Source of the DNA: Pandoraea oxalativorans
GTDB lineage: Bacteria > Pseudomonadota > Gammaproteobacteria > Burkholderiales > Burkholderiaceae
Direction: 5' to 3'
Assembly (NCBI RefSeq): GCF_000972785.3
Contig: NZ_CP011253.3
Span: 3,472,001-3,536,000 of the forward strand
DNA length: 64,000 bases
The notes below the pieces were generated by a model, which worked only from the letters and a program-made list of their open reading frames with translations, did not search any database and was not told the DNA's origin. This document shows, piece after piece, positions 3,569-47,877 of this stretch (within the stretch, counting starts at the first letter, position 1; each line of letters starts with the position of its first letter). The translations under genes and the position numbers were made by a program.

Positions 3569-4696
3569 TCACCACGGCGCGTATTGCTCGAACACCGTCT
3601 GACGTTCGAAGGCGATCAGCACGGCGCGCTTGTGCGGAAAATCGAACTCGCGCAGGCGGGCCGCGCCCTGCCCCTGCATATAGGCGATCCAGCGGTCGTG
3701 ATCGATGCGCGGCTCGCCGACGATGCGCTGCGTACGCGGATCGTCGAGGAAGATGTAGTGGACGATAGACCGCAGCCATGCTTCGGTGCGCCCGGGTGAG
3801 CGAAAACGCGTCGAACCCACCAGCAAATGGAAACCTCGGTCGTAGTCGGCCGCCTCGCAAAACGGCGCAATGCGGTCTTCCTTCGCCCAATACACCTCGA
3901 AGTAGGCAAACGGCTCGTCGTCGAAACACGCGAACAACGTGACGGTGTGGGGATCGGCCTGCATCTTCGCCAAGTACTCGGCATGTTCCTCCAGCGTGCC
4001 CGTCTGCTCCCAAAAGTGCGCCACGCTGTCGAGGTTCATCCACTCGTGAAAGCGTTCGACGTCGCCCGGCTGATCGATGGCACGCAGGCTGAAGCTCGTG
4101 CCGAGTCGAGCGATGTGACGCCGATACACCTCGCCCACCGGCTTCGGTGCGCGCAACGGATGGCGCTTGCCGTCCGACACACGGTACTGCTGCGCCATGC
4201 CGGCCGACGACGGTCCCTGGAGCCACTGCGCCGGGTGCTGCCAGAACGTCTGACGCGAGACGTGTAACGTACTCGTACCATCGGCTTGCGAAAACTGCTC
4301 CCCCACCCCGTCACGAACCGCTGCGACGAGCCACGCCGCCAGCGCCGGGTCGGCGTCCGTTCCCGGCCACGCCACGCTGGCCCGCTTGCACGCCTTGTGA
4401 TGACAGAACACAGCCGCCAGCACCGGCAACAACGCCTGAACCGGCAGATGGGCGTCATACGGCGTGCTCGCCCGCAGCGCTATCGCGCCGTCAGCTTCGC
4501 TCACCTTGAACACGGCGACGGCACGCGCGTCGCACCAGAGCATGAGGTCCTGACCGGCGCGGGCGACGCCATCGTCCGGCCCGCTCGCGTGATATCGATG
4601 ACCGTCGGCCAGCGTGACGCCGTAGGGATCATGGGGCGCAGCACGCCCGGCTTGCGCAGCGGACGATTCAACAGGGGCAGTCATTGCAATTGACAC
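3569..4696 (-). CDS. Siderophore N-hydroxyornithine acyltransferase (AlcB/IucB-like GNAT)
   Basis: A 375-residue acyl-CoA-dependent acyltransferase expected to acetylate the N5-hydroxyl amine of ornithine to give the hydroxamate iron ligand. The C-terminal ~190 residues are of the siderophore acyltransferase type, with blocks such as LDSVAHFWEQTGTLEEHAEY, PFAYFEVYWAKEDRIAPF and YIFLDDPRTQRIVGEPR. A GTG start at 4696 is preferred because AGGAG sits 8 nt upstream; the ATG at 4684 has no such site. It is the last gene of the fhuCBD operon, 85 bp after fhuD. In ornibactin clusters, OrbK and OrbL have related roles. No formyltransferase gene is present in the window, so this is the only candidate for hydroxamate acylation. 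Confidence 0.85.
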   Translation of the reverse strand: MSIAMTAPVESSAAQAGRAAPHDPYGVTLADGHRYHASGPDDGVARAGQDLMLWCDARAVAVFKVSEADGAIALRASTPYDAHLPVQALLPVLAAVFCHHKACKRASVAWPGTDADPALAAWLVAAVRDGVGEQFSQADGTSTLHVSRQTFWQHPAQWLQGPSSAGMAQQYRVSDGKRHPLRAPKPVGEVYRRHIARLGTSFSLRAIDQPGDVERFHEWMNLDSVAHFWEQTGTLEEHAEYLAKMQADPHTVTLFACFDDEPFAYFEVYWAKEDRIAPFCEAADYDRGFHLLVGSTRFRSPGRTEAWLRSIVHYIFLDDPRTQRIVGEPRIDHDRWIAYMQGQGAARLREFDFPHKRAVLIAFERQTVFEQYAPW

Positions 4697-4781
4697 GATT
4701 CGATCTCCTCTCAGCCAAGCCGGACGCCGCCACGGCATCCGTCAAAATTCAGACGCCGTTCATGCGCCGTTCATACGCCGC

Positions 4782-5789
4782 TCATACACCGGACGCGGCC
4801 CTCGCACGCATGGCGGGCGCCATCGATGCGAACGCCGTGCCGACGAGACCGGTAATCCGGTCGAGCGATACCGGGCCGCCAAAACCCCACGATGGCGGCA
4901 GAAACGCGACACGTCCGTCGCGCACGGCAGGCAACGCCCGCCAGACCGGCAGTTGATACGCGGGCGCAGCGCCGTTGTCGACAACGATCAGCGACCACTC
5001 GGGATGCCGCGCCAGATCGCCCAGCGACAGATTGACCATCGACTGACGCTCGTCGAGCCATCCGAGTGCGTTGCGCGCCCCCAGATGCCCGATCAGCGCG
5101 CCGATCATGTCCTTGTTGTCGTACGCCCAGAAGTTGCCGCCACCCGCGTTGGCGTTGAGCAGCGCAATCGGCGCGTCGCGAAAACCGTCGCGCAACGCAC
5201 TCGCACGCGCCTCGGCAATGCGTGCCTGGCTATCGGCGACGATTTGCGCTGCCGCGTCGACACGCCCCGTCATGCCGCCCAGGGATCGGAAGATGGCCAG
5301 CATGCGGTCGAGAGCGTCCCCCTCGCCCTCGGCGGGCTGGACGTTGAAGACAACGGTCGGTGCGATACGCGCCAATGCGTCGAACAACCGTTCGTGCCGA
5401 TACGCATACGCGACGATCAGATCGGGACGCAACGCCGCAATCGCTTCGAGATTCGGTTGCTCGCGCGTGCCCACGGCGCTGTCCGCGCGCAACCGGTCCG
5501 CACGATATTTGACCCACTGCGTGTAGCCACGCGGATCGGCCACCCCGATTGGCGTGACGTCGAGCGCCAGCAGCGACTCGGTAAACAGAAACTCCAGCGA
5601 GACGACCCGGCGGGCGGGCGTCGGCAAGACAGGCGACGCGCGGTTGAACAAGCCGCGATAGTTCTGCGCGTGCACATCGAGCGGCACCGCACCGGTCATC
5701 GCGACCGCGCCGGCGGCGAGGTATTTCAGGCAGCGGCGGCGTGCCGGGTGAGCCGGCGCGCCTGCATCAGATTTAGCCGGCATGCGCAT
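4782..5789 (-). CDS. fhuD: Ferric-siderophore periplasmic binding protein, FhuD-like
   Basis: A 335-residue periplasmic solute-binding protein for a ferric hydroxamate (class III fold of the FhuD/BtuF type). The N-terminus has a twin-arginine-like motif (RRRCLK, residues 17-22) before a hydrophobic stretch ending VHAQ, so Tat export is likely. Two lobes follow, with PARRVVSLEFLFTESLLAL and the helical linker typical of these proteins, and YDNKDMIGALIGHLGARNA in the second lobe. It overlaps fhuB by 17 nt. It would hand the ferric complex to FhuB/FhuC. Confidence 0.9.
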   Translation of the reverse strand: MRMPAKSDAGAPAHPARRRCLKYLAAGAVAMTGAVPLDVHAQNYRGLFNRASPVLPTPARRVVSLEFLFTESLLALDVTPIGVADPRGYTQWVKYRADRLRADSAVGTREQPNLEAIAALRPDLIVAYAYRHERLFDALARIAPTVVFNVQPAEGEGDALDRMLAIFRSLGGMTGRVDAAAQIVADSQARIAEARASALRDGFRDAPIALLNANAGGGNFWAYDNKDMIGALIGHLGARNALGWLDERQSMVNLSLGDLARHPEWSLIVVDNGAAPAYQLPVWRALPAVRDGRVAFLPPSWGFGGPVSLDRITGLVGTAFASMAPAMRARAASGV

Positions 5790-7899
5790 GCGACCTCAGG
5801 AAAGTGCGGGAGAGCAGCCAAAGGAAGAGCGGCGTGCCGACGGCAGCGGTGACGATGCCCAGCGGGAAATCGAGCGGCGCGAACAGCGTACGTCCGAACA
5901 AGTCGGCCACGCCGAGTAACAACGCGCCCGCCAGCGCCGCCGTGACGATACGGTCGCGGGTGCCGGTCAGCGGTAGCGATCTCAGCGCGTTCGGGACGAT
6001 CAATCCGACGTAAGCCACCGGACCGACCGTCGCCACCGCCGCCGCCGCCATCGCGCTCGCTAGCACCAGCAATCCGAGACGGGCACGCACGACCGGCACG
6101 CCCAGCGCCTCGGCCGTCTCGTCGCCGAGACTCAACAAGTCGAGCCACCGCCCCGCATACACCGCGAGCGGCAGGCAGATCGCCAGCCAGGGCAGCAACG
6201 CCCGCACGCCGTGCCACGATTGCCCGTAACTGCTGCCGACGAGCCATACCAGCGCCTGCGTGGCATGCACGTGGAATTGCAGCACGAGCAGGTTCGCCAA
6301 CGCTGCGAGCAGACCGGCCAACGCCATGCCCGTCAGAATCACTCGCATTGGCGCGAGTCCCCAGCGCGCGTTCACGCCGAGCACGATCGCCAGCACCCCG
6401 GCGCTCGCCGCCCACGCGGCGGGCATCGACCAGCGTGCAGCGGCATCTGGCGACACCAGCAGCAGCGCAAGCACCGCCAGTCCTGCCGCCTGATTCACGC
6501 CCAGCAATTCCGGCCCGGCCAGCGGATTCCGGCACGCCCCCTGAAGCAACACGCCGCTGCCTGCGAGCAGTGCCCCGGCGCCCATCGCGATCAGACTGCG
6601 CGGCAGACGCAGGTCGACCAGCATGCCGGCCGCCGTGTGCGGATCGACAACGTCGCGCCATTGCCATGCCGACGGCCACGACAGCACACCCATCGTCAGC
6701 GTCAGGCCGGTGACGGCGATCAGCGCGATGACGACCAGCGCGGCGATCACGGCCATCGGACGCCGGTTGGACGCACGATGGCCAGCCGCCATCGGGGCGG
6801 TCATCTCCGCAGTGCTCGCGGGCAGGCCGTAGCGAAGCAACAGCAGCAGCACCGGTGCGCCGATGACGGCGCTCATCACGCCGACCGGCAGCGCACCGAA
6901 CGTCAGGAGCGCGCGCGCAATGGCGTCGGTGACGATGAGCATTGCGCCGCCCCACAACGCCGAGAGCGGAATTAGCCATGCGGGCCGGTGAACGCCCATT
7001 AGCCGCACCAGATTCGGCGCGGCCAGCCCGACGAAGCCGACCGGCCCCGCCAGCGCAATGGCAATCGCAGACAGAGCGGCCGCGAGCAGAATCGTCCCCA
7101 CACGCACCGCGCCGACACGCTGTCCTAAAGCCGACGCCTGCGCTTGGCCGAAGCGCGCCAGTCCGAGCGGATGCAGTAACGCCAGCAAGGCCACACCCGC
7201 CGGGAGCAGCAACCACATCGCTTCGTCCGCCCCGCGTTTGCCGAACTGCTGCAACGACCCCGTACTCCACTGCACAACGCCCACGGCCGCACGGGTGTAG
7301 AGCGTCAGCGCAAGCATGCATAACGCCGAGAGCGCGAGCGCATTCGCCGCCCCGGCCAATGTGAGACGCAGCGGTGTCGTGCGCGTGCCGCCCGCGAGCG
7401 CGAACGTGAAAAGCGCCGCCAGCACGCCGCCCGCCAGCATCATCGGCAGGACGGCGAGGCCCGGCACGAGCAACGCAACGATGAGCCCCATCTGCGCACC
7501 CGCCGACACGCCGAGCAATTCGCCGGACGCGAGCGGATTCTGCGTGATGGTCTGGAGCAACGCACCGGCGAGTCCAAGGCACGCCCCGGCGGCAAGGCCC
7601 GCACGAATCTGCGGCATCCATGCGTCCACGAACAGCAACCAGCCGAGCGTGGCGTCGCGACTCATGCCGCTCGGCCCCCCTCGCATCGCCTGAGCGATCG
7701 TGGCCGCCCCCGGCCATGCGTCGTTAGCGAGCGCGTGGACGACGACGGCGAGCACGAGCGCCAGCCATCCCCCCCATAGCGCGCGTGTGCGGCGCGCGTA
7801 CTGACGTGGTGCGGCGTGCGCGGGCAACGTGAGCCGGCGGGCGAGGTGCAAGGTCGCCACCGTACGCTCAGCCGCCATGTCGGCCACCGTTCGGTCCAT
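5773..7899 (-). CDS. fhuB: Ferric-siderophore ABC transporter permease, fused FhuB type
   Basis: An inner-membrane permease of about 708 residues made of two FecCD-type halves in one chain, as in E. coli FhuB. Each half repeats the signature of an early segment with QNPLASGELLGVSAGAQ (first) or RNPLAGPELLGVNQAAG (second) and a late GPVGFVGLAAPNLVRL / GPVAYVGLIVPNALR segment that contacts the ATPase. It probably has 18-20 membrane helices. The start is uncertain: the ATG at 7899 has GAAGG upstream, while the ATG at 7878 would give an 11-nt overlap with fhuC. The end overlaps fhuD by 17 nt, so the import genes are translationally coupled. Confidence 0.92.
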   Translation of the reverse strand: MDRTVADMAAERTVATLHLARRLTLPAHAAPRQYARRTRALWGGWLALVLAVVVHALANDAWPGAATIAQAMRGGPSGMSRDATLGWLLFVDAWMPQIRAGLAAGACLGLAGALLQTITQNPLASGELLGVSAGAQMGLIVALLVPGLAVLPMMLAGGVLAALFTFALAGGTRTTPLRLTLAGAANALALSALCMLALTLYTRAAVGVVQWSTGSLQQFGKRGADEAMWLLLPAGVALLALLHPLGLARFGQAQASALGQRVGAVRVGTILLAAALSAIAIALAGPVGFVGLAAPNLVRLMGVHRPAWLIPLSALWGGAMLIVTDAIARALLTFGALPVGVMSAVIGAPVLLLLLRYGLPASTAEMTAPMAAGHRASNRRPMAVIAALVVIALIAVTGLTLTMGVLSWPSAWQWRDVVDPHTAAGMLVDLRLPRSLIAMGAGALLAGSGVLLQGACRNPLAGPELLGVNQAAGLAVLALLLVSPDAAARWSMPAAWAASAGVLAIVLGVNARWGLAPMRVILTGMALAGLLAALANLLVLQFHVHATQALVWLVGSSYGQSWHGVRALLPWLAICLPLAVYAGRWLDLLSLGDETAEALGVPVVRARLGLLVLASAMAAAAVATVGPVAYVGLIVPNALRSLPLTGTRDRIVTAALAGALLLGVADLFGRTLFAPLDFPLGIVTAAVGTPLFLWLLSRTFLRSHAHAG

Positions 7900-8776
7900 C
7901 CGGGACCTTCGACACGTTCGAGACGCTCGCCCCGCCGACCTCAACCGGCTCGCAGACGTCACGACGTCCCACCTGCCCGCCCAGCACCGGCAAGCACATC
8001 GGCAAGCCCTGAAAGTCGATGCGCTGCATCGGCGTGGCGAACACCGCCATCAGACGGTCCGGGTCCATCGTCTCGTCGGGTGTGCCCGAGAAGACAAGCT
8101 TGCCGTCGCGCATGAGCAGCATGGCGTCGGAGAAGGCGGCGGCCTGATTGAGGTCGTGCAGCACCCACACGACGGTCATGCCCGTCTCGCGATTGAGTTC
8201 GCGAATACGCGCAAGAATGTCGATCCGGTGGCGCACGTCGAGATACGTCGTCGGCTCGTCGAGCAACAGCACGTTGCCCTCCTGCGCCAGCGCCATGGCG
8301 ATGAACGCGCGCTGACGCTCCCCGCCGGACAACGCCGTGACGTCGCGCGTGCACAGCGTGTCCAGTTCCATGAGATGCAGGGCGCGCTCGATGGCGAGGT
8401 TGTCGCGCTCGCCAAGGCGTCCACCCATGCCGGTATGGCTGTAGCGGCCGCAAGCGACGAGTTCGGCGACGGTCATGCCGAACGGCATGCCGGGCGTCTG
8501 CGCGAGCAGCGCGATGCGACGCGCACGCTCACGTGCACGCAGCGAGTCGAGCGGCGTGTCGTCGAGCCATACGCGGCCCGACACGGGTTTGAGCAGGCCG
8601 CCCAGGGTGCGCAGCAGCGTGCTCTTGCCGCAGCCGTTCGGGCCGCACAGTGCGCTCACACGGCCTGCGGCGAAGGTCACATCGACCTGAGTGAGGACGT
8701 TGCGGGCCCCCACAGCAACATTAAGGCCTTCCGCACGCAACGACGCGCCTGCGGCAGGCGTCAGAAATTCGGTCAT
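7868..8776 (-). CDS. fhuC: Ferric-siderophore ABC transporter ATPase, FhuC-like
   Basis: A 302-residue cytoplasmic ATPase that powers FhuB. Walker A is GPNGCGKST, the ABC signature LSGGERQRAFIAMALAQ, Walker B VLLLDEPTTYLDV, and the switch histidine is in VLHDLNQAA. After residue ~260 it carries a 40-residue tail not needed for the fold. The ATG at 8776 begins MTEFLTPAAG; a GTG at 8830 is possible but has a poorly placed ribosome-binding site. It is the first gene of fhuC-fhuB-fhuD-acyltransferase, downstream of a minus-strand TAAA-N17-CGTC promoter (8900-8924) with a leader of roughly 115 nt. Confidence 0.92.
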   Translation of the reverse strand: MTEFLTPAAGASLRAEGLNVAVGARNVLTQVDVTFAAGRVSALCGPNGCGKSTLLRTLGGLLKPVSGRVWLDDTPLDSLRARERARRIALLAQTPGMPFGMTVAELVACGRYSHTGMGGRLGERDNLAIERALHLMELDTLCTRDVTALSGGERQRAFIAMALAQEGNVLLLDEPTTYLDVRHRIDILARIRELNRETGMTVVWVLHDLNQAAAFSDAMLLMRDGKLVFSGTPDETMDPDRLMAVFATPMQRIDFQGLPMCLPVLGGQVGRRDVCEPVEVGGASVSNVSKVPDGPNGGRHGG

Positions 8777-8866
8777 GTTGAATGCCGGTCTGGCGGCTGC
8801 TGGACCGGTGGAAATACGGGTATCGGGCACCCCTCGTCTCGACGGCCTGCGTGAGCGCGCGCCGCC

Positions 8867-8891
8867 TAAACTCCGGAAGTGGTGGTTCGTC
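8867..8891 (+). promoter_or_regulatory. Iron-starvation sigma promoter for the acylase gene
   Basis: TAAA (8867-8870), 17 nt, CGTC (8888-8891). This is the -35/-10 form recognised by OrbS/PvdS-type ECF sigma factors. It faces the minus-strand copy at 8900-8924, leaving 8 bp between the two -10 elements. The expected start of transcription is only about 30 nt before the acylase ATG. Confidence 0.75.
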
Positions 8892-8899
8892 GCTCAAAA

Positions 8900-8924
8900 G
8901 ACGTATCACCAACCGGCATATTTA
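8900..8924 (-). promoter_or_regulatory. Iron-starvation sigma promoter for fhuCBD-acyltransferase
   Basis: Read on the minus strand: TAAA (8924-8921), 17 nt, CGTC (8903-8900). It drives the import operon leftwards. The -35 lies 4 nt before the acylase start codon on the other strand, so this promoter and the acylase leader share the same DNA. Confidence 0.75.
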
Positions 8925-8927
8925 CCC

Positions 8928-11552
8928 ATGTCCCGATCGCCCCAGCCGTCGCGCCTTCGTTTTGCTCCCCCTGCCTGTCCAGCCTTACCCGATCTGCCTT
9001 CCTCCCCGACATCGCCAAGGCCCGTGCGGACCGGACTGGTCATCGTCGTCCTGTGCCTTGCAGCATGCACTTCACCTACGTCGCCGACGCATCAGATCGC
9101 CGAAGCGCCCAAACCCCCGGCATCCCGCGTCTCGTCCATTACCGCGCATTACACCGCCGACGTCCGTCGCACGACCGACGGCACCGCCCATGTCCGCGCG
9201 GACAACTGGGGCAGCCTCGGTTATGGCTTCGGTTACGCGCAGGCGCAGGACAATCTCTGCACGCTCGCCGAGAGCATCGTGACGTTTCGCGGCGAACGCT
9301 CGCTGGCCTTCGGGGCGGACGGTCGGGTTGTGCGACGTGCGACCTTCGGTCAGCCGAACAACCTGGATGCGGACGTCTTCTTTCGTATGACGTTCGACAC
9401 CAACACCCTCGACCGGTATCGCGCCGCCCAGTCGCCGCGCGGACGTGAACTGGCACAGGGCTTCGCGGACGGTGTGACGCGCTATCTGCAAGACATGCGC
9501 GCGGGTACGGACGCCGCTCGGCACACCGCCTGCCGCAACGCCGACTGGATGCGCCAGGTAGGCACCGTGACGGAGGACGACGTCTACCGCCGCCTCTACG
9601 CCGCCGCACTCGCTGCGAGCGCCGCCACGCAGATCACCGCCATCGCGACGGCACGGCCGCCATCGGCCAGCGCCGCGATCGATGAACGATCACGCCCGGC
9701 GCGCAAGGTCGCAACCGCGTCGCCCGCCGCAGGGTCCCCAACCTCGCTGGCCTCGATCAACGATGCGGGCGTCGGCAGCAACGCCTTCGCCTTCGGGGCG
9801 TCGCTGAGTGCCGATGGCCAGCCGATTCTGTACGGCAGCCCGCACTGGTACTGGGAAGGTCCCGACCGGCTGTACCCTGCGCATCTCACGATCCCCGGCC
9901 AGTTCGACGTCTCGGGTGTCGGCATGCTCGGCGCGCCGTTCATCATGATCGGCTTCACGCAGAACGTCGCGTGGACGCATACGGTATCGAGTGCGCGACG
10001 CTTCGGCCTCATCGCCCTCACGCTCGATCCGACGGACCCGACCCGCTACCGGCTCGACGGCCGAACCGAAGCCATGCAGCGCGTTTCCGTCACCGTCCCC
10101 GTGCGCGATGCGCAAGGCAAGACGTCGACCGTCTCGCGAACGCTGTATCGCACGACCGACGGGCCAGTCGTCAATCTCTCGGCCATGTCCCCGGCGCTCG
10201 GCTGGACGACGCGTCAGGCACTGGTCCTGCGCGACGCCAACGCCAACAACTTCGGCCTGCTCGATCACTATCTGCGCATGGCGCAGGCCGACTCGCTCGA
10301 CGCGTTCGCGTCGGGCATGCGCACCGACGCGGCCAATCCGTGGGTCAACACCGTGGCCATCGGCCGACGCGACCCGCGCGTGTGGTTCGGCGATATTGGC
10401 CCGGTGCCGGGCGTGCCGGACGCGTTGTCGGCCGCTTGCACCGCCAAGCCCGCAGGACTGGCCTTCGCGAAGGCCGCGCCGGGTCTGCCTGTCCTGGACG
10501 GCAGCCGCAGCGCCTGCGCATGGCAAACCGCGCCGGACAGCCCGTTACCCGGCACGCTCGGACGCGGCGAGATGCCGGACATCATGAGCGACACGGTCGT
10601 CGCCAACATGAACGACAGTGCGTGGCTGGCCGCACCGGATGCGCCCCTCACCCATCTAAGCCGTGTGCTCGGCCAAAGCAACGCACCGCTTTCGCTGCGC
10701 AGCCGCGAGGGCTTGCAACGCATCGCCGCCTTGCGCGCCGCCGGTCCGGTCACGCAGCAGGCAGTGCGCGAGTCCGTGCTGCGCGCCACGCCCTTGTCCG
10801 CCAATCTCGCGCGCAAGTCGTTCCTCGCGCGCGCGTGCCCCTCTGAAGCCGAGCGCAAAGACAAACGCTTCGACGTGCGAGTCACACAAGATCCGCTCGA
10901 CGGCAAACCGTTGAAGTCGTCACAGACTGTCGATCTGGCGCCCGCCTGCCGCGTGCTGGCCGCCTGGGACGGCACGGGCGAGCGCAGCGCTCGGGGCGCG
11001 AACTTGTGGGATGCCGTCTGGATCCGGCTCGCAGGCGTCGATGCCACCGGACGTCGGGCGTTCGCCGAGCCGTTCGATGCCACGCACCCCGTCGCGTCGC
11101 CCGCCGGACTCGCCGCAGACGGCACGTCGCTCGCACAGACGCTGGGCGCGGCCGTGCTGGAGATGCAGCGCATGGGACTGGCGCTCGACAGCCGACGCGA
11201 CGAAGCGCTCTTCGCCACGCGCGGCGGACGCCGCATCGGACTGTCGGGCGGCTGCGACATCGCGGGCTACTTCTCGATCATGTGCGCCGACGCCCGCATG
11301 GGCACCGACCGCTATGGCATGGACACGGTTGCGCGCGGCGACACGTATCTCCAGGTCGTCTCCTTCCCCGACGATCCGGCGCGGCGCGTCGCTGCCTCGA
11401 CGCTCGACGCATCCGGCCCCTCGGACGACCGCGCCGATCCGCGCAATGCAACAGCCCTGCAAGCGTGGGCCGACAAACGCTGGCAGGCCGCGCCGTTCAC
11501 GCAGGCCGACGTCGATGCAGCCACCGTCAGCGTGCTGCATCTCTCGCAATGA
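8928..11552 (+). CDS. PvdQ-like penicillin-acylase-family hydrolase, lipoprotein
   Basis: An 874-residue N-terminal-nucleophile amidohydrolase. A lipoprotein signal (LVIVVLCLAAC, lipobox cysteine about residue 46) follows a basic N-terminus. The alpha chain begins near ITAHYTADVRRTTDGTAHV. The autocatalytic cleavage site is G-Ser284 in GVGSNAFAFGAS, whose serine should become the beta-chain nucleophile, followed by GSPHWYWEGPDRLYP. The family includes aculeacin, penicillin and acyl-homoserine-lactone acylases and PvdQ, which removes the fatty acid from the pyoverdine precursor. Here the first NRPS starts with a FAAL and the gene has a siderophore-type promoter, so deacylation of the siderophore is the likely role. 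Quorum quenching is an alternative. No clear ribosome-binding site precedes the ATG. Confidence 0.85.
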   Translation: MSRSPQPSRLRFAPPACPALPDLPSSPTSPRPVRTGLVIVVLCLAACTSPTSPTHQIAEAPKPPASRVSSITAHYTADVRRTTDGTAHVRADNWGSLGYGFGYAQAQDNLCTLAESIVTFRGERSLAFGADGRVVRRATFGQPNNLDADVFFRMTFDTNTLDRYRAAQSPRGRELAQGFADGVTRYLQDMRAGTDAARHTACRNADWMRQVGTVTEDDVYRRLYAAALAASAATQITAIATARPPSASAAIDERSRPARKVATASPAAGSPTSLASINDAGVGSNAFAFGASLSADGQPILYGSPHWYWEGPDRLYPAHLTIPGQFDVSGVGMLGAPFIMIGFTQNVAWTHTVSSARRFGLIALTLDPTDPTRYRLDGRTEAMQRVSVTVPVRDAQGKTSTVSRTLYRTTDGPVVNLSAMSPALGWTTRQALVLRDANANNFGLLDHYLRMAQADSLDAFASGMRTDAANPWVNTVAIGRRDPRVWFGDIGPVPGVPDALSAACTAKPAGLAFAKAAPGLPVLDGSRSACAWQTAPDSPLPGTLGRGEMPDIMSDTVVANMNDSAWLAAPDAPLTHLSRVLGQSNAPLSLRSREGLQRIAALRAAGPVTQQAVRESVLRATPLSANLARKSFLARACPSEAERKDKRFDVRVTQDPLDGKPLKSSQTVDLAPACRVLAAWDGTGERSARGANLWDAVWIRLAGVDATGRRAFAEPFDATHPVASPAGLAADGTSLAQTLGAAVLEMQRMGLALDSRRDEALFATRGGRRIGLSGGCDIAGYFSIMCADARMGTDRYGMDTVARGDTYLQVVSFPDDPARRVAASTLDASGPSDDRADPRNATALQAWADKRWQAAPFTQADVDAATVSVLHLSQ

Positions 11553-11586: not shown

Positions 11587-11611
11587 TAAATATCCCGTGG
11601 GTTGATTCGTC
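11587..11611 (+). promoter_or_regulatory. Iron-starvation sigma promoter for the receptor gene
   Basis: TAAA (11587-11590), 17 nt, CGTC (11608-11611), which also reads as TAAAT-N16-CGT, the PvdS form. It lies in the 139-bp gap between the acylase and receptor genes and predicts a leader of about 70 nt ending in the AGGAG site near 11680. Confidence 0.78.
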
Positions 11612-40703: not shown

Positions 40704-40752
40704 GGTTGGATCCTCAACGAAACCGCGGCGCCACACGCGCCGCACTTTCATT

Positions 40753-40776
40753 GACGATCCTCGTGCCCGCAATTTA
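40753..40776 (-). promoter_or_regulatory. Weak candidate internal sigma promoter before the dioxygenase gene
   Basis: On the minus strand TAAA (40776-40773), 16 nt, CGTC (40756-40753). The spacing is one short of the other five sites in the window. If real, it would start a dioxygenase-NRPS transcript and support the ATG at 40703. Confidence 0.35.
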
Positions 40777-40782
40777 AGGGCT

Positions 40783-42483
40783 TTACGCGGACGATTGCGG
40801 TTTTTCTACATTCGCTGTCGTCACCACCGGATTTGCAGACGTCGGGGTGACAGATGTCGGTTCGCCGTCCGCGATCAACTGACCGTTTTCCATCTTCACC
40901 AGCCGGTCGGCCAGCGAGAAGTAACGGTCGTCGTGCGAGATCACCAGCACGGTTTTCCCCTGCGCCTTCAGCTCGGGCAGGATTTCCCGGTAGAACACTT
41001 CCTTGAACACCGGGTCCTGGTCGGCCGCCCATTCGTCGAACACGAGGAACGGTCGATCCTCCACGCACGCCGCCACGAGGGCGAGACGCTTGCGCTGCCC
41101 CTGAGAGAGATCGCGCGTCGAGAAGGCACCATTCGTCACGCTGACCTTGTGTTGAAGGTGCAGGCGCGCGAGCCAGCGCGCGGCGAACGCGTCGATCCGT
41201 GCGGGATCGGTTTGCACGTCGTCCGCCCCCAGCAGCGTTTCGAACAGATGGAAATCGAAGAATATCGCCGAGAACAACTGACGGTAGCGATCGCGATTCC
41301 TGACGTCGACCGACTGACCGTTCCACACGATTTCGCCGCTCTCCGGCACATAAAGCCCGGTGAGCAGCTTGGCCAGCGACGTTTTGCCGCTGCCGTTGCC
41401 CCCGATCAGGAAAGTGATCTCGCCCGGACGGAACGTCAGATCGATCGGCCCCATGCGGAAGATTTCGTCCTGCTGCTCATGGTAGTAGCTATGCGTGATG
41501 CCATGCAGCCTCACCAGCGGCGCACCGGTCGTCGACGTATCCGACGACGTGACGTCCTCGGTACGCATCGACTCCGTCACCTTCTGGATGCGCTCGCTCG
41601 CGACACGCGCCATCGTCAACAACGGAATGTTGTTGAGCATGGCTTCGAGCGGCGTGACCATGTACAGGAACACGATGGCGTAGCCCGTCGCCACGTGCGC
41701 ATTGCTCGACGTCGCACCAACCAGCACGAACAGCACCAGCCCGATGAGGGCGAAGAACAGGAAACGCACCCAACTGACCGAGAAGATGAACAGCGTCAGG
41801 CCGCGTGAGCGATTCTCGCGCACCGCCTCGATGGCGGCGCCGAGCACGCGCGCGAGGAAGGCGTCGGCACGACGGCGGTTGAGTTTCAGCTCCTTGGCAC
41901 CGGATGCCAGTGTCTGGAAGTGCCCGAACAACTCATCCTGACGCTGCCCCGCCGTGCGCAGATACCGAATCACTTTGGTATGACTGATGTGATAGCCCAG
42001 CGCACCCAGACCGATCGCCACGCAGGCCATCAGGAAGATCGGCCAAGAGAGGATCGCCAGGTACAGGAAGCATCCCATCACAATCGCGCCATTCATGACG
42101 AGCGTCGGCAGGCCGATGAAGAAGTTGGCGACGTGGTTGGCGTCGTCGGCCAGCACCGACTGCACGCGCGCGCCGCCCGTCGATTCGACGACGCGCAGCG
42201 GCGCGTTGACGATGATGCGCGACACGTGCCGACGCAGTTCGGCCAGCGTGCGCTGCCCCAACCGTGTGAAGAGCGCTCCGGCACACATCTGCGCGAGCAT
42301 GGAGAGCACGGCCAGCGCGGCGAAGCGCCACGCCTGCGCGCCCAGTTCCGCCGCTGGCGCACCGAGCGCGCGATTGATCGATGCGATCAGCATGACGTTC
42401 GCCACGCCGCAGGCGAGCGAGGCAACTACAGCGGCCGCAAGCAGCCAGCGTGAAGCACGCAACAGGAACAGAAACAGGAACAC
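40783..42483 (-). CDS. PvdE/SyrD-type siderophore-peptide export ABC transporter
   Basis: A 566-residue half-transporter with fused membrane and ATPase domains, of the cyclic-peptide-export class. About six helices lie in residues 1-310 (first LLAAAVVASLACGVANVML). The nucleotide-binding part has Walker A GGNGSGKTS, signature LSQGQRKRLALVAA and Walker B FLVFDEWAADQDP, the DEWAADQDP form typical of PvdE-like exporters. PvdE moves the acylated pyoverdine precursor to the periplasm, and the same step is expected here before the acylase acts. A GTG start at 42483 is used, with GGAG 6 nt upstream. First gene of the minus-strand biosynthetic block. Confidence 0.9.
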   Translation of the reverse strand: MFLFLFLLRASRWLLAAAVVASLACGVANVMLIASINRALGAPAAELGAQAWRFAALAVLSMLAQMCAGALFTRLGQRTLAELRRHVSRIIVNAPLRVVESTGGARVQSVLADDANHVANFFIGLPTLVMNGAIVMGCFLYLAILSWPIFLMACVAIGLGALGYHISHTKVIRYLRTAGQRQDELFGHFQTLASGAKELKLNRRRADAFLARVLGAAIEAVRENRSRGLTLFIFSVSWVRFLFFALIGLVLFVLVGATSSNAHVATGYAIVFLYMVTPLEAMLNNIPLLTMARVASERIQKVTESMRTEDVTSSDTSTTGAPLVRLHGITHSYYHEQQDEIFRMGPIDLTFRPGEITFLIGGNGSGKTSLAKLLTGLYVPESGEIVWNGQSVDVRNRDRYRQLFSAIFFDFHLFETLLGADDVQTDPARIDAFAARWLARLHLQHKVSVTNGAFSTRDLSQGQRKRLALVAACVEDRPFLVFDEWAADQDPVFKEVFYREILPELKAQGKTVLVISHDDRYFSLADRLVKMENGQLIADGEPTSVTPTSANPVVTTANVEKPQSSA

Positions 42484-42722: not shown

Positions 42723-42747
42723 CCCGAATTTCGCCGGGGTAAATTTA
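42723..42747 (-). promoter_or_regulatory. Candidate sigma promoter for the exporter-NRPS operon
   Basis: On the minus strand TAAA (42747-42744), 17 nt, CGGG (42726-42723): the -35 is perfect and the -10 matches only CG of CGTC. A second GGTAAAT -35-like copy (TAAA 42722-42719) lies just downstream, but with TGGT at the -10 position. One of these should serve the largest operon of the locus, as no better site is visible between 42484 and 42848. Confidence 0.4.
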
Positions 42748-42764
42748 TAGAAAAGCTCATCGTC
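42740..42764 (+). promoter_or_regulatory. Iron-starvation sigma promoter for the ornithine hydroxylase gene
   Basis: TAAA (42740-42743), 17 nt, CGTC (42761-42764). TAAATTTA (42740-42747) is palindromic, so it supplies a -35 to both strands. The start of transcription falls near 42772, which fixes the translation start downstream at 42849. Confidence 0.75.
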
Positions 42765-42848
42765 TTCTGGGAAACGGATGCTTTGTATCGCATTCCCCCC
42801 CGATCCCGGGTCCGGGTGAATTCACCTGATGACCTTGCCGAGGCCCTC

Positions 42849-44225
42849 ATGCACGCAAGTACCGAACCGTCCACGACGACCAACACTGCCCCTCATTCCG
42901 TGACACACGACCTGATCGGCGTTGGCTTCGGCCCGTCCAATCTCGCTCTGGCCATCGCCCTCGAAGAGCACTGCGGGCAGCGCCTCGGCCCCGCCCGCTT
43001 CCTGTTTCTGGAGAAGCAGCCCGAGTTCACCTGGCACGGCAACATGCTGCTCTCTAACAGCCGCATGCAGATCGCCTATCTCAAGGATCTCGCGACGCTG
43101 CGCAATCCGCGCAGCCGCTTCACCTTCATCAACTATCTGCATGAGAAAGCGCGGCTGTCCGCGTTCATCAACCTGCAAAGCCACTACCCGACCCGGCGCG
43201 AGTACAACGACTATCTGCGCTGGGCCGCGTCGCACTTTCACGGGCAATGCGCCTATGGCGAAACGGTGACAGGCATCGAGCCCGTGCTGGAGCGCGATGA
43301 AGTCGTAGCGTTGCAAGTTCATTCGCGCGACGGGCAAGGCGAGACGCAGACGCGGCGCACGGGCAACGTGATTCTCGGCGCGGGCGGCACCCCCCATGTG
43401 CCGCCAGTGTTCACCCCGCTGCATCGCACGTCCCATGCGCGCTTGTTCCATTCGTCCCAATATCTGGCCCGCGTGGCGTCGCTCAGCGAGACGACACCGC
43501 GTCGGGTCGCCGTCGTCGGCGGCGGACAGAGTGCCGCGGAAATCTTCCTCGACCTCGCGGAGCAATGGCCGCAGGCGCAGGTCGATCTCATCATGCGAGG
43601 CCGCGCCCTCAAACCCGCAGACAGCAGCCCGTTCGTCAACGAAATCTTCGATCCGCAATTCACCGACTTCGTCTATGCGCAGCCGGTGGAACAACGCGAG
43701 CGGATTCTCGATGAGTTTCGCAATACGAACTATGCCGTGGTCGACGACGATCTTATCGCGCGCATTTACGACGTGTTGTATCAGCAGCGCGTGGGCGGAC
43801 ACGGGCATCACGCCTTGCTGGCTTGCCATGAGATCCGCGAGGCGAGCGCCGACGGGGACCAGATCATGCTGCATATGCACGAGCGGCTCGCCGGACGGCC
43901 AGTGACGCAGCATTACGACGTCGTGGTGCTTGCCACCGGTTACGAGCGCCGCACGCATGAAGCCCTGTTGTCGGACCTCGCACCGTGGCTCGACGGCCTC
44001 GAAGGCGAGCGGGACTACCGTCTGCGTACTCGCGAGAGCTTCCAGCCCGGCATCTATCTGCAAGGCTATTGCGAGCCGACGCACGGACTGTCCGACACGC
44101 TGCTCTCGATTCTGGCCACGCGCTCATCCGAAATCGCAACGTCGCTGCTCTCGCGCGCGCCCTTGCAGACCGATGCACCGGCCCAGACAACCCAAGCATC
44201 GCGCGTCGCCGCACTGGCCGGATGA
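42849..44225 (+). CDS. pvdA: L-ornithine N5-monooxygenase
   Basis: A 458-residue FAD- and NADPH-dependent hydroxylase that converts ornithine to N5-hydroxyornithine, the first step to the hydroxamate. The FAD site is GVGFGPSNLALAIAL (near residue 23), the NADPH site VAVVGGGQSAAEIFLDL (near 220) and the C-terminal ATGYERR motif (near 363). PvdA, MbaC and SidA are the characterised relatives. The ATG at 42849 has GAGG 5-6 nt upstream and lies after the predicted promoter; the open frame continues upstream for 133 codons but would include the promoter itself. It converges on the reductase gene through a strong terminator. It is the only plus-strand biosynthetic gene between the minus-strand blocks. 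Confidence 0.95.
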   Translation: MHASTEPSTTTNTAPHSVTHDLIGVGFGPSNLALAIALEEHCGQRLGPARFLFLEKQPEFTWHGNMLLSNSRMQIAYLKDLATLRNPRSRFTFINYLHEKARLSAFINLQSHYPTRREYNDYLRWAASHFHGQCAYGETVTGIEPVLERDEVVALQVHSRDGQGETQTRRTGNVILGAGGTPHVPPVFTPLHRTSHARLFHSSQYLARVASLSETTPRRVAVVGGGQSAAEIFLDLAEQWPQAQVDLIMRGRALKPADSSPFVNEIFDPQFTDFVYAQPVEQRERILDEFRNTNYAVVDDDLIARIYDVLYQQRVGGHGHHALLACHEIREASADGDQIMLHMHERLAGRPVTQHYDVVVLATGYERRTHEALLSDLAPWLDGLEGERDYRLRTRESFQPGIYLQGYCEPTHGLSDTLLSILATRSSEIATSLLSRAPLQTDAPAQTTQASRVAALAG

Positions 44226-44243
44226 ACGGGCACCCTCGATGCA

Positions 44244-44282: not shown

Positions 44283-44306
44283 CCACGGTCGAGTCGGATG
44301 CGTGGG

Positions 44307-45206
44307 CTATTGCGGTGCGCCGCCCGCCTGCATCGCCAGTTGCCGCTGAAGCTGCACGGGCGTCATGGTCAGGATCAGCGGACACGATCCGCATAGCAGC
44401 GCTTCGTCACAGCGCGTGCCCTTGCCCGCCAATTGATAACGCAGACAACACACACGACGCGCGCGCATCGGCGCGGGCATCGCCGTCGACGGCGGCGTGA
44501 CATAACGCACCGTGCGATAGAGCGGATTGTCGGACGTCTCACCGAAACCGGCGTCGCCATCGAAAAGCCACGCGTAATCGCTGGCGGCACGCGCGCCGAG
44601 CGACGGCACCTTGCGCATCTCGCCGACGATGAACTCCAGCAAGTTGCCTGCATTGCTCCAGAGCACACGGGTCGAAACGCCCGCCGCCCGTTGCATCGCT
44701 GCCATGGCAGCAGGCAGGTGCTCCTGAAGCAGCGACGAAAAGCGCACTTGCGGCGGCTCGGCCACGGTATCGCCCTCGCCTTCGCGCGGCGGCGTCCAAC
44801 TGGATTCGGGAAAACGAACCTGCACGGGCAATCCGCCGCGCAGCACGATGCCACAGGCATCCGGGTCGAGCGTCAGCGTACGGCCATGCACGACGGTGAT
44901 CGCCAGCGCCGCCGGCGCCACCGCCCGGAAATAGAACTTGCTCCACTGCGACATGAGCGCGCGTGGCTCGACCCCGGGCACGAGGCGACGAACGCCGTCG
45001 AACATGGCGGGCATGTGGCGATCGAGATCGGCCAGACCGATGACCGTATCGCCGGGGCGAAGGTCGTCGGGCACGCGCGCGCCGAAGGCCAGCCCGGCAC
45101 ACAGCGGCCCTAGCTCGGGCCGCACCGGTGCGGGCAGACTCGCCGCGAGGTCGAACTGCGCTGCGCCCGCGAACCGCTGTGCACGCATCTCGGCACGCTC
45201 GCTCAT
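44307..45206 (-). CDS. fhuF: FhuF-like ferric-siderophore reductase
   Basis: A 299-residue cytoplasmic [2Fe-2S] reductase that frees iron from the imported ferric siderophore. The cluster ligands are at the C-terminus: CC, 11 residues, then C and the CGSCP element, close to the FhuF CC-x10-C-x2-C pattern although spaced a little differently. The start at 45206 overlaps the thioesterase stop by 4 nt (ATGA), so translation is coupled. It is the last gene of mbtH-thioesterase-fhuF. OrbF is the ornibactin counterpart. Confidence 0.85.
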   Translation of the reverse strand: MSERAEMRAQRFAGAAQFDLAASLPAPVRPELGPLCAGLAFGARVPDDLRPGDTVIGLADLDRHMPAMFDGVRRLVPGVEPRALMSQWSKFYFRAVAPAALAITVVHGRTLTLDPDACGIVLRGGLPVQVRFPESSWTPPREGEGDTVAEPPQVRFSSLLQEHLPAAMAAMQRAAGVSTRVLWSNAGNLLEFIVGEMRKVPSLGARAASDYAWLFDGDAGFGETSDNPLYRTVRYVTPPSTAMPAPMRARRVCCLRYQLAGKGTRCDEALLCGSCPLILTMTPVQLQRQLAMQAGGAPQ

Positions 45207-45964
45207 CGCGCCGACGCCAGCGCGCACGCCGAGGGCGGCGCATGCATCGTCGGGGCCAGGCGATTGGCCATGACTGCGAGCAGATGGGCTGGATCGTCAC
45301 GCACGAAGAAATGGTCACCGTCGAAATCGGTGCGCGTATAGCCGCCGGTCGTCTCGCAACGCCAGTCGTCAAGGACTTCCGGCGCGAACGCATCGCTGCG
45401 TCCGGCCAATGCATGAATCGGCATGGATAGCGGTGCGCGCGCCTGTGGCGACGGACGCCGGTAATGCCCGCACAACTGAAAATCCGCCTTGATGACCGGC
45501 AGCACCATCGCCATCAGTTCAGGCTCGGCGAGCAGGGCTTCCGGCGTGCCGCCGAGCGCGCGCATCTCGGCCAGTACCTCGGCGTCGTCGCGCAACGCAG
45601 CATAGCGACTGTCGTCGCGCGTGGCGGGCGGACGGCTCGCCGCCACGAACAGCGCAGCAGGCGACCAACCCCGCGCGTGCAGCCGATGCGCGATCTCGAA
45701 CGCCAGCAGACCGCCGAGACTGTGACCGAACAAGGCGAAGCGCGCGCCAGACCTTATGTGCTGCTCAAGACACTCCGCGGTCAGTTGGTCTGCCAGCACG
45801 TGCGGGTCGTGTTGCAACGGTTCGTGATGACGCGTACCGCGCCCCGGCAGTTCAAGCGGGCGCACTGCCAGCCATGACGGCGCGGCCTGCGCCCAGCGCG
45901 TATACACCGTGGCGCTCCCCCCTGCACAGGGCAGGCACAGCAGACGACACGCCTCAAACGCCAT
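45203..45964 (-). CDS. Type II thioesterase for NRPS editing
   Basis: A 253-residue alpha/beta-hydrolase that removes wrong or stalled acyl groups from carrier domains. LLCLPCAGGSATVYTRWA near the start and the nucleophile elbow GHSLGG are typical of GrsT/RifR-like proteins; the catalytic histidine is in DGDHFFV. The ATG at 45964 gives an 11-nt overlap with mbtH; a GTG at 45976 is possible. Placed between mbtH and fhuF in one operon. The NRPS has its own C-terminal TE, so this one is auxiliary. Confidence 0.9.
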   Translation of the reverse strand: MAFEACRLLCLPCAGGSATVYTRWAQAAPSWLAVRPLELPGRGTRHHEPLQHDPHVLADQLTAECLEQHIRSGARFALFGHSLGGLLAFEIAHRLHARGWSPAALFVAASRPPATRDDSRYAALRDDAEVLAEMRALGGTPEALLAEPELMAMVLPVIKADFQLCGHYRRPSPQARAPLSMPIHALAGRSDAFAPEVLDDWRCETTGGYTRTDFDGDHFFVRDDPAHLLAVMANRLAPTMHAPPSACALASAR

Positions 45965-46181
45965 TGCGCCCGTCACCCTGCGTAGCCAGATGCTCGCGCA
46001 GGCTGCGCGGGCGCATGTCCGTCCAGACCGCCTCGATATGGGCCAGACATGTTGCCTTGTTACCGGTCACCCCGACTTCGCGCCAGCCAGCGGGCACGGG
46101 CCGGTAGTCCGGCCAGATGGCGTATTGCTCTTCGTCGTTGATGACCACATGGAACATGCCATTCTCGTCGTCGAAACTCAT
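45954..46181 (-). CDS. MbtH-like protein
   Basis: A 75-residue partner that activates or stabilises NRPS adenylation domains. The family signature is complete: NDEEQYAIWPDYRPVPAGW and CLAHIEAVWTDMRP, including the conserved tryptophans. AAGGAG stands 7 nt before the ATG. First gene of a three-gene operon with its own TAAA-N17-CGTC promoter. OrbH is the ornibactin counterpart. Confidence 0.97.
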   Translation of the reverse strand: MSFDDENGMFHVVINDEEQYAIWPDYRPVPAGWREVGVTGNKATCLAHIEAVWTDMRPRSLREHLATQGDGRNGV

Positions 46182-46258
46182 CGATCACTCCTTAAGCGTC
46201 CAGCCCACCGGGGGGCGAAGGCTGCAAGGGCACGGTGTGTGCCCTCCTCTGGCTAAAA

Positions 46259-46283
46259 GACGGTCCAGCGCCGACGCAATTTA
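46259..46283 (-). promoter_or_regulatory. Iron-starvation sigma promoter for mbtH-thioesterase-fhuF
   Basis: On the minus strand TAAA (46283-46280), 17 nt, CGTC (46262-46259). The first three bases of the -35 are the TAA stop codon of the PPTase gene, so the two share bases. The leader to the mbtH ATG would be about 70 nt. Confidence 0.75.
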
Positions 46284-47024
46284 CCCCTGCGGCAGCCAGG
46301 CCAATGCCGCCGAATAGCCCGGTGGCGCAGGCAACAGCCTCAGTTCCAGCCCGCGCAACGCGTCGGCCAACGCCGGGTCGTCCGCCCGCCAAGCAATCGC
46401 GTGACCGGCGGTGGCCGACGGGATCGCGGCATCGAATTTGCCCTCGAGCGCCGACACCTCACGCGCGACGGAGTCCACGTCCACGCTCAGCGCCGTGAGG
46501 CTGTCCTGCAACCCGGTGCCAAGCGCCTTGAAGATGGCCTCCTTGAGGCTCCAGATCCAATGGAATATCTCGTCCGCGCGCGGTCCATGCCCCGGCAGTG
46601 TGAAACTCAGCATCAGTAAGGCACGCTGTTCTTCCGCGTGAAGGCAGACGTCCCACGACGAACGCGGATCGGCAAGGGCGTTCAGTCGTTCGATATCCAC
46701 ACCGACGCGCACATCGGGCGAATAGGCCAGTAGCCCCCAATGCCCGGAATGGCTGACGTTGAAATCCGGCGGCCCGCCCCCGATCAGGCGCGGACGGCCG
46801 CGCGCGTCGACCTCGAACGCTACCCGATCCGGCGGCACACCCAACTCGCGGCCCAACGCGTCGCGCAACGTGGCCCGAACGACCGCGAAGCGCGCCCGAT
46901 CCTCTTCTTTGTGCAGCGCACCGAGCCGCAATCGCTCATCCGCAGACAGCCGCTGCGCCAGGCGCGCCGGGGCACTCGCAGCATCGGTAATCCTGATGAA
47001 TTGCAAAGCTAAGCTCATTGGCAT
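46281..47024 (-). CDS. 4'-phosphopantetheinyl transferase, Sfp type
   Basis: A 247-residue enzyme that moves phosphopantetheine from CoA to the carrier-domain serines. The Sfp-class motifs are present: VGVDIERL (Mg2+ ligands D and E) and FHWIWSLKEAIFKALG with the catalytic K-E-x-x-x-K. The start is uncertain among ATGs at 47057, 47024 and 47018; 47024 is used because the family fold begins just after it. It is upstream of mbtH on the same strand and divergent from the sigma gene, with the Fur-box-like site 56-74 bp upstream, so it may also be iron-regulated. Confidence 0.9.
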   Translation of the reverse strand: MPMSLALQFIRITDAASAPARLAQRLSADERLRLGALHKEEDRARFAVVRATLRDALGRELGVPPDRVAFEVDARGRPRLIGGGPPDFNVSHSGHWGLLAYSPDVRVGVDIERLNALADPRSSWDVCLHAEEQRALLMLSFTLPGHGPRADEIFHWIWSLKEAIFKALGTGLQDSLTALSVDVDSVAREVSALEGKFDAAIPSATAGHAIAWRADDPALADALRGLELRLLPAPPGYSAALAWLPQG

Positions 47025-47077
47025 AACGAAATGACGCGCTCCCCAATCGGTCGACATCTTGCATATCAAAATATTAA

Positions 47078-47106
47078 TTGCAAACCATTCTCATTTTCAC
47101 TATCGT
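47078..47106 (+). promoter_or_regulatory. Housekeeping-type promoter of the ECF sigma gene
   Basis: TTGCAA (47078-47083), 17 nt, TATCGT (47101-47106), a fair sigma-70 pair. It predicts a leader near 190 nt before the sigma ATG at 47305. The Fur-box-like site lies between and over these elements. Confidence 0.5.
47080..47098. promoter_or_regulatory. Fur-box-like operator
   Basis: GCAAACCATTCTCATTTTC matches 12 of 19 positions of the classical Fur consensus, with the right half (TCATT-TC) nearly complete. It covers the spacer of the predicted sigma-gene promoter, where Fe-Fur would block RNA polymerase. This agrees with Fur control of orbS/pvdS in relatives; binding here is an inference. Confidence 0.65.
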
Positions 47107-47304
47107 TTACGTCAAATTTAGCGCATCCCCTGTAGAAAGTGGTAACCCCATTGTCTGTCATGGCGATGCAACAGAAGTTCTGCAGTCCTGTCGTTTCTCC
47201 CTGCACCGTTGTGTCGGAATGCGCGCCAAGCGTCGTTCCCGGCGGCGTTCGTCCGTCGCTTTGTCACACAGCTGTGCGTTCGATGCCGATCTGGAGGCAA
47301 AAGC

Positions 47305-47877
47305 ATGAGCGAGCAGTTGAGTTACGCCGGGTGCCCCGGCTGGACGCCAATGGGCACCGACACGGAGGACGGTCTCGTGGGTCAGATCTTCGTGACGCAC
47401 CGGCGGGCGCTGGTGGGACTGGCGATGCGCATTCTCGGATGTCCCTGCCGTGCCGAAGACGTCGTGCAAGACGCCTACATCAAGCTTTGCGACGCGCGTA
47501 GCGCCTGCCCGGTCCGGCATCCGGCCAGCTACGTGATGCAAGTCGTGCGCAATCTGGCGCTGGACGGCTACCGCCGTCAGCAAATCGAGAATCGGGTGTT
47601 TACGGTGGAAGACGAAGCCATCGACATGCCCGATCGTGCCGCCTCGCCGGAAGCGCAGGTCACGGCGCGCCAGATGATCGGCGGCATGCTCGAGCGGCTC
47701 AAGACACTTCCCGAGCGCACCCGCACGGTGTTCGAGATGTATTACTTTCAGGATTGCACGCAGCGCGAGATCGCTCAGTCGCTGGGGGTCTCCACGACGC
47801 TCGTGAACTTCATGATGCAGGACGCCCGTCAGGCTCTCACGCCGTGGATCAGCGGCACGACCGAAGAGCCTGCCTGA
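47305..47877 (+). CDS. OrbS/PvdS-type iron-starvation ECF sigma factor
   Basis: A 190-residue ECF sigma factor. Region 2 (residues ~24-95) has RILGCPCRAEDVVQDAYIKL and SYVMQVVRNLALDGYRR; region 4 (~125-180) has LPERTRTVFEMYYFQDCTQR and the helix-turn-helix REIAQSLGVSTTLVNFMM. These are the hallmarks of PvdS/OrbS/MbaS. The ATG at 47305 has GGAGG 7 nt upstream. No anti-sigma gene follows, as in orbS-type loci where Fur alone controls the sigma. It should read the five TAAA-N17-CGTC promoters in this window. Confidence 0.92.
   Translation: MSEQLSYAGCPGWTPMGTDTEDGLVGQIFVTHRRALVGLAMRILGCPCRAEDVVQDAYIKLCDARSACPVRHPASYVMQVVRNLALDGYRRQQIENRVFTVEDEAIDMPDRAASPEAQVTARQMIGGMLERLKTLPERTRTVFEMYYFQDCTQREIAQSLGVSTTLVNFMMQDARQALTPWISGTTEEPA

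Follow-up and report, generated by a model that had tools for sequence, protein, structure and literature searches.

The siderophore locus and its product

A siderophore locus of 17 genes occupies positions 3569–47877 of a 64,000-nucleotide stretch of the Pandoraea oxalativorans genome (contig NZ_CP011253.3; hereafter the window). We conclude with good confidence that this is the pan (pandorabactin) cluster of strain DSM 23570T, and that the acylase gene is a conserved member of it; we tentatively take the product of that gene to be an amidase on the side of siderophore uptake or turnover. The cluster and its product are already known from the literature and are not new. The preliminary description of this stretch had allowed that the cluster might prove identical to one of known product, and in pandorabactins A and B such a product exists (PMC12144892, main text). 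The solved cluster leaves a contrast: clusters with PvdQ or MobM give lipid-free siderophores, whereas the pan cluster, with a related acylase, gives a lipidated one, and an acylase gene in a cluster is no predictor of an acyl-free product.

Read from the sigma-factor side, the genes encode an extracytoplasmic function (ECF) sigma factor, a phosphopantetheinyl transferase, an MbtH protein, a type II thioesterase, a FhuF reductase, an ornithine hydroxylase, a cyclic-peptide ATP-binding cassette (ABC) exporter, a TauD hydroxylase, three nonribosomal peptide synthetases (NRPSs), a TonB receptor, the acylase, an ABC ATPase, a FecCD permease, a periplasmic binding protein and an acyltransferase. 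The domain order, the adenylation codes and this 17-gene order agree with the pan cluster as the main text of PMC12144892 describes it, which bears out an earlier hunch that the product is pandorabactin. The host is the published producer strain, and the likeness takes in the gene order as far as letters are named, the start with a fatty acyl-AMP ligase (FAAL), the order of modules and epimerases, and the order of substrates; no difference was found against the text of that paper, the comparison being with its description and not with deposited sequence. All of the condensation-family matches of the genome (8/8) lie inside the window, which is thus the only NRPS locus found in the genome, and the published NRPS that was removed by the panI deletion can therefore only be the NRPS of the window.

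The same main text (PMC12144892) describes pandorabactins A and B, which come both from P. oxalativorans DSM 23570, there assigned to risk group 1, and from P. sputorum DSM 21091. They have the backbone acyl-N5-OH-Orn-OH-Asp-Thr-N5-OH-Orn-Ala-OH-Asp, in which a 3-hydroxyhexanoyl or 3-hydroxyoctanoyl group at the N-terminus is lactonised to the last OH-Asp, and the first ornithine bears a 3-hydroxybutyryl hydroxamate. The product chelates iron, deletion of either panI or panQ abolishes its production, and the substrate that PanQ acylates in vitro is free hydroxyornithine (PMC12144892). In our computed balance the building blocks add up to the published formula, C35H58N8O19. It is hardly conceivable that the cluster of this genome makes a product other than pandorabactin: no second NRPS locus was found in the genome, the codes are common to eight pan-type clusters, and the published ΔpanI mutant contradicts such a product if the strains are identical.

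PMC12144892 uses the letter F for the hydroxylase, H for the dioxygenase, I–K for the NRPS, L for the receptor and Q for the acyltransferase. Exactly M–P are then left for the acylase, ATPase, permease and binding protein, so that by counting the acylase is PanM. A relative of the acylase at 91% identity bears a source name beginning 'pandorabactin biosynthesis'.

NRPS modules and adenylation codes

From motif positions the NRPS layout is FAAL-T / C-A-T-E / C-A-T / C-A-T // C-A-T-E / C-A-T // C-A-T-TE, where C, A, T, E and TE are condensation, adenylation, thiolation, epimerization and thioesterase domains. The three genes lie on the minus strand and were assigned from Pfam, motifs and codes. 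By position, PanI (26260–39612; four AMP-binding, four condensation-family and four T domains by Pfam) is FAAL-T / C-A(hOrn-type code)-T-E / C-A(Asp)-T / C-A(Thr)-T, with hOrn for hydroxyornithine; PanJ (18324–26282; three condensation-family, two A and two T domains) is C-A(hOrn-type code)-T-E / C-A(Ala in pandorabactin)-T; and PanK (14002–18225; C-A-T-TE) is C-A(Asp)-T-TE. The FAAL loading domain (37800–39612, minus strand) was recognised by profile matches, of which the best to this first AMP-binding domain is an NRPS/polyketide synthase model, followed by fatty acid-AMP ligase models, all below the whole-protein cut-offs. The pan-cluster architecture, a FAAL-primed hexamodular NRPS on three genes with E domains in modules 1 and 4 and a terminal TE, is thus present, and the lipid-primed hexapeptide siderophore of the preliminary description is borne out.

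Codes were read for all six A domains: DGEGSGGMTK, DLTKVGHVGK (Asp) and DFWNVGMVHK (Thr) in modules 1–3, and DGEGSGGVTK, DVWCVAMVYK and DLTKIGHVGK (Asp) in modules 4–6. The Asp and Thr readings follow the standard codes. Assignments to hOrn and Ala were taken from the main text of PMC12144892, and the substrate order found is hOrn-Asp-Thr-hOrn-Ala-Asp. Together with the E positions, the six codes reproduce the backbone acyl-X1(D)-Asp-Thr-X4(D)-X5-Asp that had been predicted earlier. Over eight pan-type clusters the codes are constant save for I/V exchanges, with one domain unread. A single position (M/V) separates the module-1 code from that of module 4, and the published formula acylates the first hydroxyornithine only; the residue is M in 8/8 module-1 domains and V in all seven module-4 domains recovered from these eight clusters.

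In the model of the PMC12144892 authors, the FAAL would load a 3-hydroxy-C6 or -C8 acid, the six modules would add D-N5-(3-hydroxybutyryl)-hydroxyOrn, 3-OH-Asp, Thr, D-N5-hydroxyOrn, Ala and 3-OH-Asp. Lactone closure onto the acyl hydroxyl would fall to the thioesterase.

The acylase and its promoter

The acylase gene (8928–11552, plus strand) encodes an 874-residue N-terminal nucleophile (Ntn) hydrolase of the MacQ/PvdQ type, as judged from Pfam, PDB matches and alignment. Penicil_amidase (PF01804) matches the open reading frame 8691–11552 with an E-value of 4.4e-95; a start at 8691 was set aside in favour of the likely ATG at 8928. The protein has a candidate lipobox, LAAC, with Cys at that place in eight of nine aligned sequences, that of the window included. 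Its predicted beta chain begins at Ser284 and keeps the Ntn-hydrolase residues of the family, Ser1, His23 and Val70. The Asn motif NMND, at position 277, we take to correspond to PvdQ Asn269.

The nearest acylases by sequence are those of other Pandoraea. The best solved relative is PDB 5c9i, presumably MacQ of Acidovorax sp. MR-S7, at 600 bits over residues 153–942 of a 953-residue query, versus 330 bits for PvdQ, and the PvdQ equivalog NF051460 (NCBIfam) scores 468 bits against a cut-off of 950. The PvdQ-like Ntn-hydrolase of the preliminary description is therefore retained as a PF01804 acylase, but one nearer to MacQ than to PvdQ. With PvdQ of Pseudomonas aeruginosa the protein shares the Ntn-hydrolase family, the nucleophile Ser, His23 and Val70, and a place in a siderophore cluster; it differs in scoring nearer MacQ and in its setting, since the lipid is removed in pyoverdine and retained in pandorabactin. 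MacQ, the closest solved relative and aligned over most of PanM, differs in being described for N-acyl homoserine lactones (AHLs) and beta-lactams, and the word siderophore does not occur in its paper, PMC5478981. Its acyl range of C6 to C14 (PMC5478981) covers the C6 and C8 chains of pandorabactin.

The pattern TAAA-N15..18-CGTC, which we take to be the consensus of an ornibactin-type sigma factor, is matched nine times in the window, one pair of these matches overlapping, whereas 100 shuffles gave 2.36 ± 1.45 matches and never more than six. One promoter-like TAAA-N17-CGTC site (8867–8891, plus strand) ends 36 bases before the ATG of the acylase gene, in keeping with the siderophore-type promoter noted there before, and another (8900–8924, minus strand) faces the importer genes. 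These two interlock on opposite strands across 8867–8924, each within the predicted leader of the other, and both are kept in 6/6 other Pandoraea loci (L002, L003 and L005–L008; L004, which starts too late, was left out), with acylase-site spacers that vary. Further matches to the N17 pattern stand before the receptor gene (11587–11611, plus strand) and the ornithine hydroxylase gene (42740–42764, plus strand).

Distribution of the acylase and of FAAL-primed synthetases

Among 32 Pandoraea genomes a siderophore-type FAAL (E <1e-170) is present in 17, and the acylase is in the same 17/17 and in 0/15 of the others, counts that are inflated by relatedness; a weak FAAL match (37%) occurs in two of the 15 acylase-free genomes. 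FAAL and acylase share a contig in 15/17, the other two genomes (G024 and G026) being fragmented drafts, and the distance between them is 26–29 kb in ten genomes of pan type but 46 kb in five others. In those five (G016, G006, G014, G015 and G022) the FAAL-primed NRPS is of another type, encoded by a frame of 9,426–9,490 codons, and has an acylase of its own that is 45–46% identical to PanM; the named loci of this type are those of P. iniqua (L048) and P. horticolens (L059). G016, the one read in detail, has two graminine-type codes (DVHRTGLVAK, so named in PMC10391617), and these suggest that a diazeniumdiolate siderophore may be made in Pandoraea.

In a wider sample of 200 Burkholderiaceae genomes (acylase threshold E 1e-130) we found the FAAL in 39, the acylase in 40 and both in 21. 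Linkage is loose outside Pandoraea, where 8/26 FAAL genomes have the acylase, in five cases on the FAAL contig and no more than 50 kb away, and 18/26 have none; in genus g3 one of 14 FAAL genomes has it. A rule that the FAAL is always accompanied by the acylase was dropped on these counts. Among 40 genomes behind named acylase loci, hand-picked from the best 80 of 213, a FAAL (E <1e-140) is present in 22 and both are on one contig within 50 kb in ten.

Within at most 10 kb on each side of the acylase, the best 80 of the 213 named loci comprise 22 with NRPS and uptake genes, four with uptake genes only (in one of these, L050, a FAAL lies about 40 kb away on the acylase contig), four with NRPS only and one with a single uptake gene, and 49 are without a TonB, periplasmic binding protein, permease or NRPS homologue. 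Siderophore-linked acylases nevertheless cluster on the tree, requiring 8 changes versus 24.5 in shuffles (0/500 as low), a result that near-copies help. The tree labels follow a looser siderophore reading (30 rows) and not the locus classes above, and five unlabelled rows (L066, L067, L035, L025 and L030) on a branch of length 5, probably wrong-frame open reading frames, were kept in.

The co-occurrence in all 17 FAAL-bearing Pandoraea would fit a PvdQ-like maturation step, in which the acyl group is a temporary membrane tag removed in the periplasm before export, as PvdQ does in pyoverdine synthesis (PMC5474475). The tistrellabactin authors, too, argue from the Ntn hydrolase MobM that an acyl group is present for a time (PMC10391617); the exporter also stays with the acylase in the three NRPS-free loci described below. 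The tistrellabactin cluster resembles the pan cluster in pairing a siderophore NRPS with an Ntn hydrolase and differs in that no fatty acyl group was detected on its product (PMC10391617). In pandorabactins A and B of the present strain the acyl chain is retained, and the macrolactone is closed through it (PMC12144892). This structure does not support the temporary lipid tag proposed in the preliminary description, unless another acyl group, so far unseen, takes part. The 18 non-Pandoraea FAAL genomes without such an acylase and the persistence of its relatives in NRPS-free loci also count against maturation, and we regard it as improbable.

We further weighed whether the acylase trims the N-delta acyl group from the second hydroxyornithine (Orn4). 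The published formula leaves Orn4 unacylated while the codes DGEGSGGMTK and DGEGSGGVTK differ at one position, PanQ acylates free hydroxyornithine in vitro (PMC12144892), and an Azoarcus acylase locus (L072) has homologues of the hydroxylase (49%) and of PanQ (50%). The M/V difference is constant, making a choice at loading the simpler account. Among 13 other acylase-bearing clusters, ten have the graminine code within the stretch fetched and none has the hOrn-type code. A hydroxylase homologue was found in 0/13 of these stretches but also in 0/4 acylase-less FAAL clusters, three of them with the code, so that its absence says little. Trimming of Orn4 was rejected as very improbable on the constant code difference and the absence of the code from the 13 clusters.

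Acylase loci without an NRPS

Three Paraburkholderia loci, those of P. metrosideri (L028), P. ginsengisoli (L054) and P. tropica (L019), keep the receptor, exporter and acylase together with the ATPase, binding protein and permease of the importer, whereas the 40 kb read at each showed no NRPS. Genome-wide condensation matches number zero in P. metrosideri, one (weak) in P. ginsengisoli and three in P. tropica, none of them on the acylase contig. The cassettes of P. metrosideri and P. ginsengisoli match the one of P. aspalathi at 69–89% identity per protein, and in P. aspalathi a FAAL lies on the cassette contig; the P. tropica cassette is more distant. These NRPS-free uptake cassettes suggest a function of the acylase beyond synthesis, an argument weakened by the many solitary acylases counted next. 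Their hosts may exploit foreign lipopeptide siderophores.

The acylase is present in 41 of 144 genomes of the P. metrosideri genus. Thirty of these were read, the other 11 coinciding in coordinates with genomes already covered as named loci: 15 have neither NRPS nor uptake genes beside the acylase (G333 is cut by a contig end), six have both, four have NRPS only, one has a single uptake gene, and four have uptake genes without NRPS, of which one, G312, is cut off by its contig edge within an NRPS fragment, leaving three.

Such solitary relatives, 15/30 here and 49/80 among the best-matching named loci, favour a general N-acyl amidohydrolase, used in quorum quenching or in detoxifying lipopeptides, whether foreign or the cell's own, that has come by chance under an iron-starvation sigma factor. 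The best solved relative, MacQ, degrades C6–C14 AHLs and beta-lactams (PMC5478981), and GdnD of Schlegelella (Burkholderiales), which is PvdQ-like and encoded far from its target cluster, strips lipopeptides (PMC10587159). The complete co-occurrence with FAAL-primed NRPSs over the 32 Pandoraea genomes argues the other way, as do the conserved promoter sites and the grouping of siderophore-linked acylases on the tree (8 versus 24.5 changes, near-copies helping). We consider this explanation possible, but doubtful.

A search for remnants at 18 loci found part of the cassette beside the acylase in two (L044 and L010) and nothing in 15; in G337 the exporter and part of the permease stand at a contig end. 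Remnants of exporter or ATPase genes lie directly before the solitary acylase at 9517–9747 in L044 (P. fynbosensis) and 9631–10008 in L010 (C. udeis). In both, the acylase seems to have persisted after the loss of its cluster, so that the enzyme may be of use on its own.

The role of the acylase

The acylase gene lies inside the uptake block and its promoter site is interlocked with that of the importer operon, both of which support the uptake side. We tentatively favour, at a strength short of an even chance, the reading that the acylase is a periplasmic enzyme of uptake or turnover that cleaves the N-acyl amide of the lipidated siderophore. The lipidated form would act outside the cell first, and the acylase step would come after this, not on the way to the secreted product; the enzyme would cut siderophore that is being imported or has come back to the cell. 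The acyl chain may be subject to a post-secretion or uptake-side lipid switch. A more specific version, to which we give a rather low probability, has an import-side lipoprotein amidase cutting the recaptured macrolactone so that the head group passes the FecCD importer or yields its iron, with the NRPS-free cassette letting some Paraburkholderia exploit the lipopeptide siderophores of others.

Several points weigh against cleavage on the uptake side. An action of PanM on pandorabactin is a prediction, and the gene letters A–Q were set by counting genes against the main text of PMC12144892. Four genomes of Variovorax and Acidovorax (L047, L052, L063 and L066) have both FAAL and acylase, yet on separate contigs or at a distance of 276 kb. 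The solitary acylases in half of the loci read in the P. metrosideri genus make a use unrelated to siderophores possible. Only three uptake loci without NRPS were found, none of them in Pandoraea, where a receptor at least 85% identical is confined to 12 pan-type genomes, and the exporter kept in L028, L054 and L019 is unexplained by a pure uptake role.

An acylase paired with a lipid-primed siderophore is already in print for pyoverdine, marinobactin and tistrellabactin. Marinobactins are linear, while pandorabactin is a macrolactone; Kem et al. in 2015 reportedly described the Marinobacter acylases BntA and MhtA as acting on marinobactins. These enzymes hydrolyse marinobactins according to PMC6562741 and PMC11800396, and they resemble PanM, by description and not by sequence, in being PvdQ homologues of lipopeptide-siderophore producers. 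The main text of PMC12144892 reports no search for deacylated pandorabactin and has no occurrence of acylase, PvdQ, panM, amidase or deacyl. Our searches of the open-licence literature brought up no paper on the pan acylase; of the two papers there that name pandorabactin, PMC12144892 and PMC12834315, the first was read. Nor did those searches bring up an acylase for the gramibactin, variochelin, cupriachelin and taiwachelin clusters, and the word 'hydrolase' is absent from PMC6771848, on gramibactin relatives.

Other genes of the locus and its surroundings

On the importer side, the minus strand carries genes for the N-delta-hydroxyornithine acyltransferase (3569–4738; Acetyltransf_8), which is PanQ by position as the last of the 17, the periplasmic binding protein of the ferri-siderophore importer (4782–5789; Peripla_BP_2), a fused FecCD permease of 729 residues (5773–7962; two stretches of PF01032) and the ABC importer ATPase (7868–8830; ABC_tran). 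The TonB-dependent siderophore receptor, PanL by position (11692–13914, plus strand), was recognised by domain search; the pan receptor homologues at or above 85% identity are those of 12/32 Pandoraea genomes, and one Pandoraea genome holds a second receptor gene that is 81% identical to it (G002:C11:22195-24372).

Beyond the NRPS genes are the TauD-type aspartate beta-hydroxylase, PanH by position (39729–40772, minus strand; TauD), the cyclic peptide export ABC transporter (40783–42483, minus strand; TIGR01194 at 464 bits against a cut-off of 286) and the L-ornithine N5-hydroxylase, PanF by position (42849–44225, plus strand; PF13434). These are followed on the minus strand by the FhuF-type siderophore-iron reductase (44307–45227; TIGR03951 above cut-off), the type II thioesterase (45203–45976; domain search), the MbtH-like protein (45954–46181), which was recognised by eye in translation, and the 4'-phosphopantetheinyl transferase (46281–47024; ACPS). 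The ECF sigma factor gene (47209–47877, plus strand) was identified by domain search, and its siderophore role is suggested by context.

The sigma-factor side is bordered by an IS110-type transposase and an integrase-core transposase (49082–51189). Genes at 52250–60098 are apparently unrelated to the siderophore locus and encode flavin-dependent (FAD) oxidoreductases of the amino-acid oxidase/sarcosine oxidase kind, a solute-binding protein, parts of an ABC importer and a LysR regulator.

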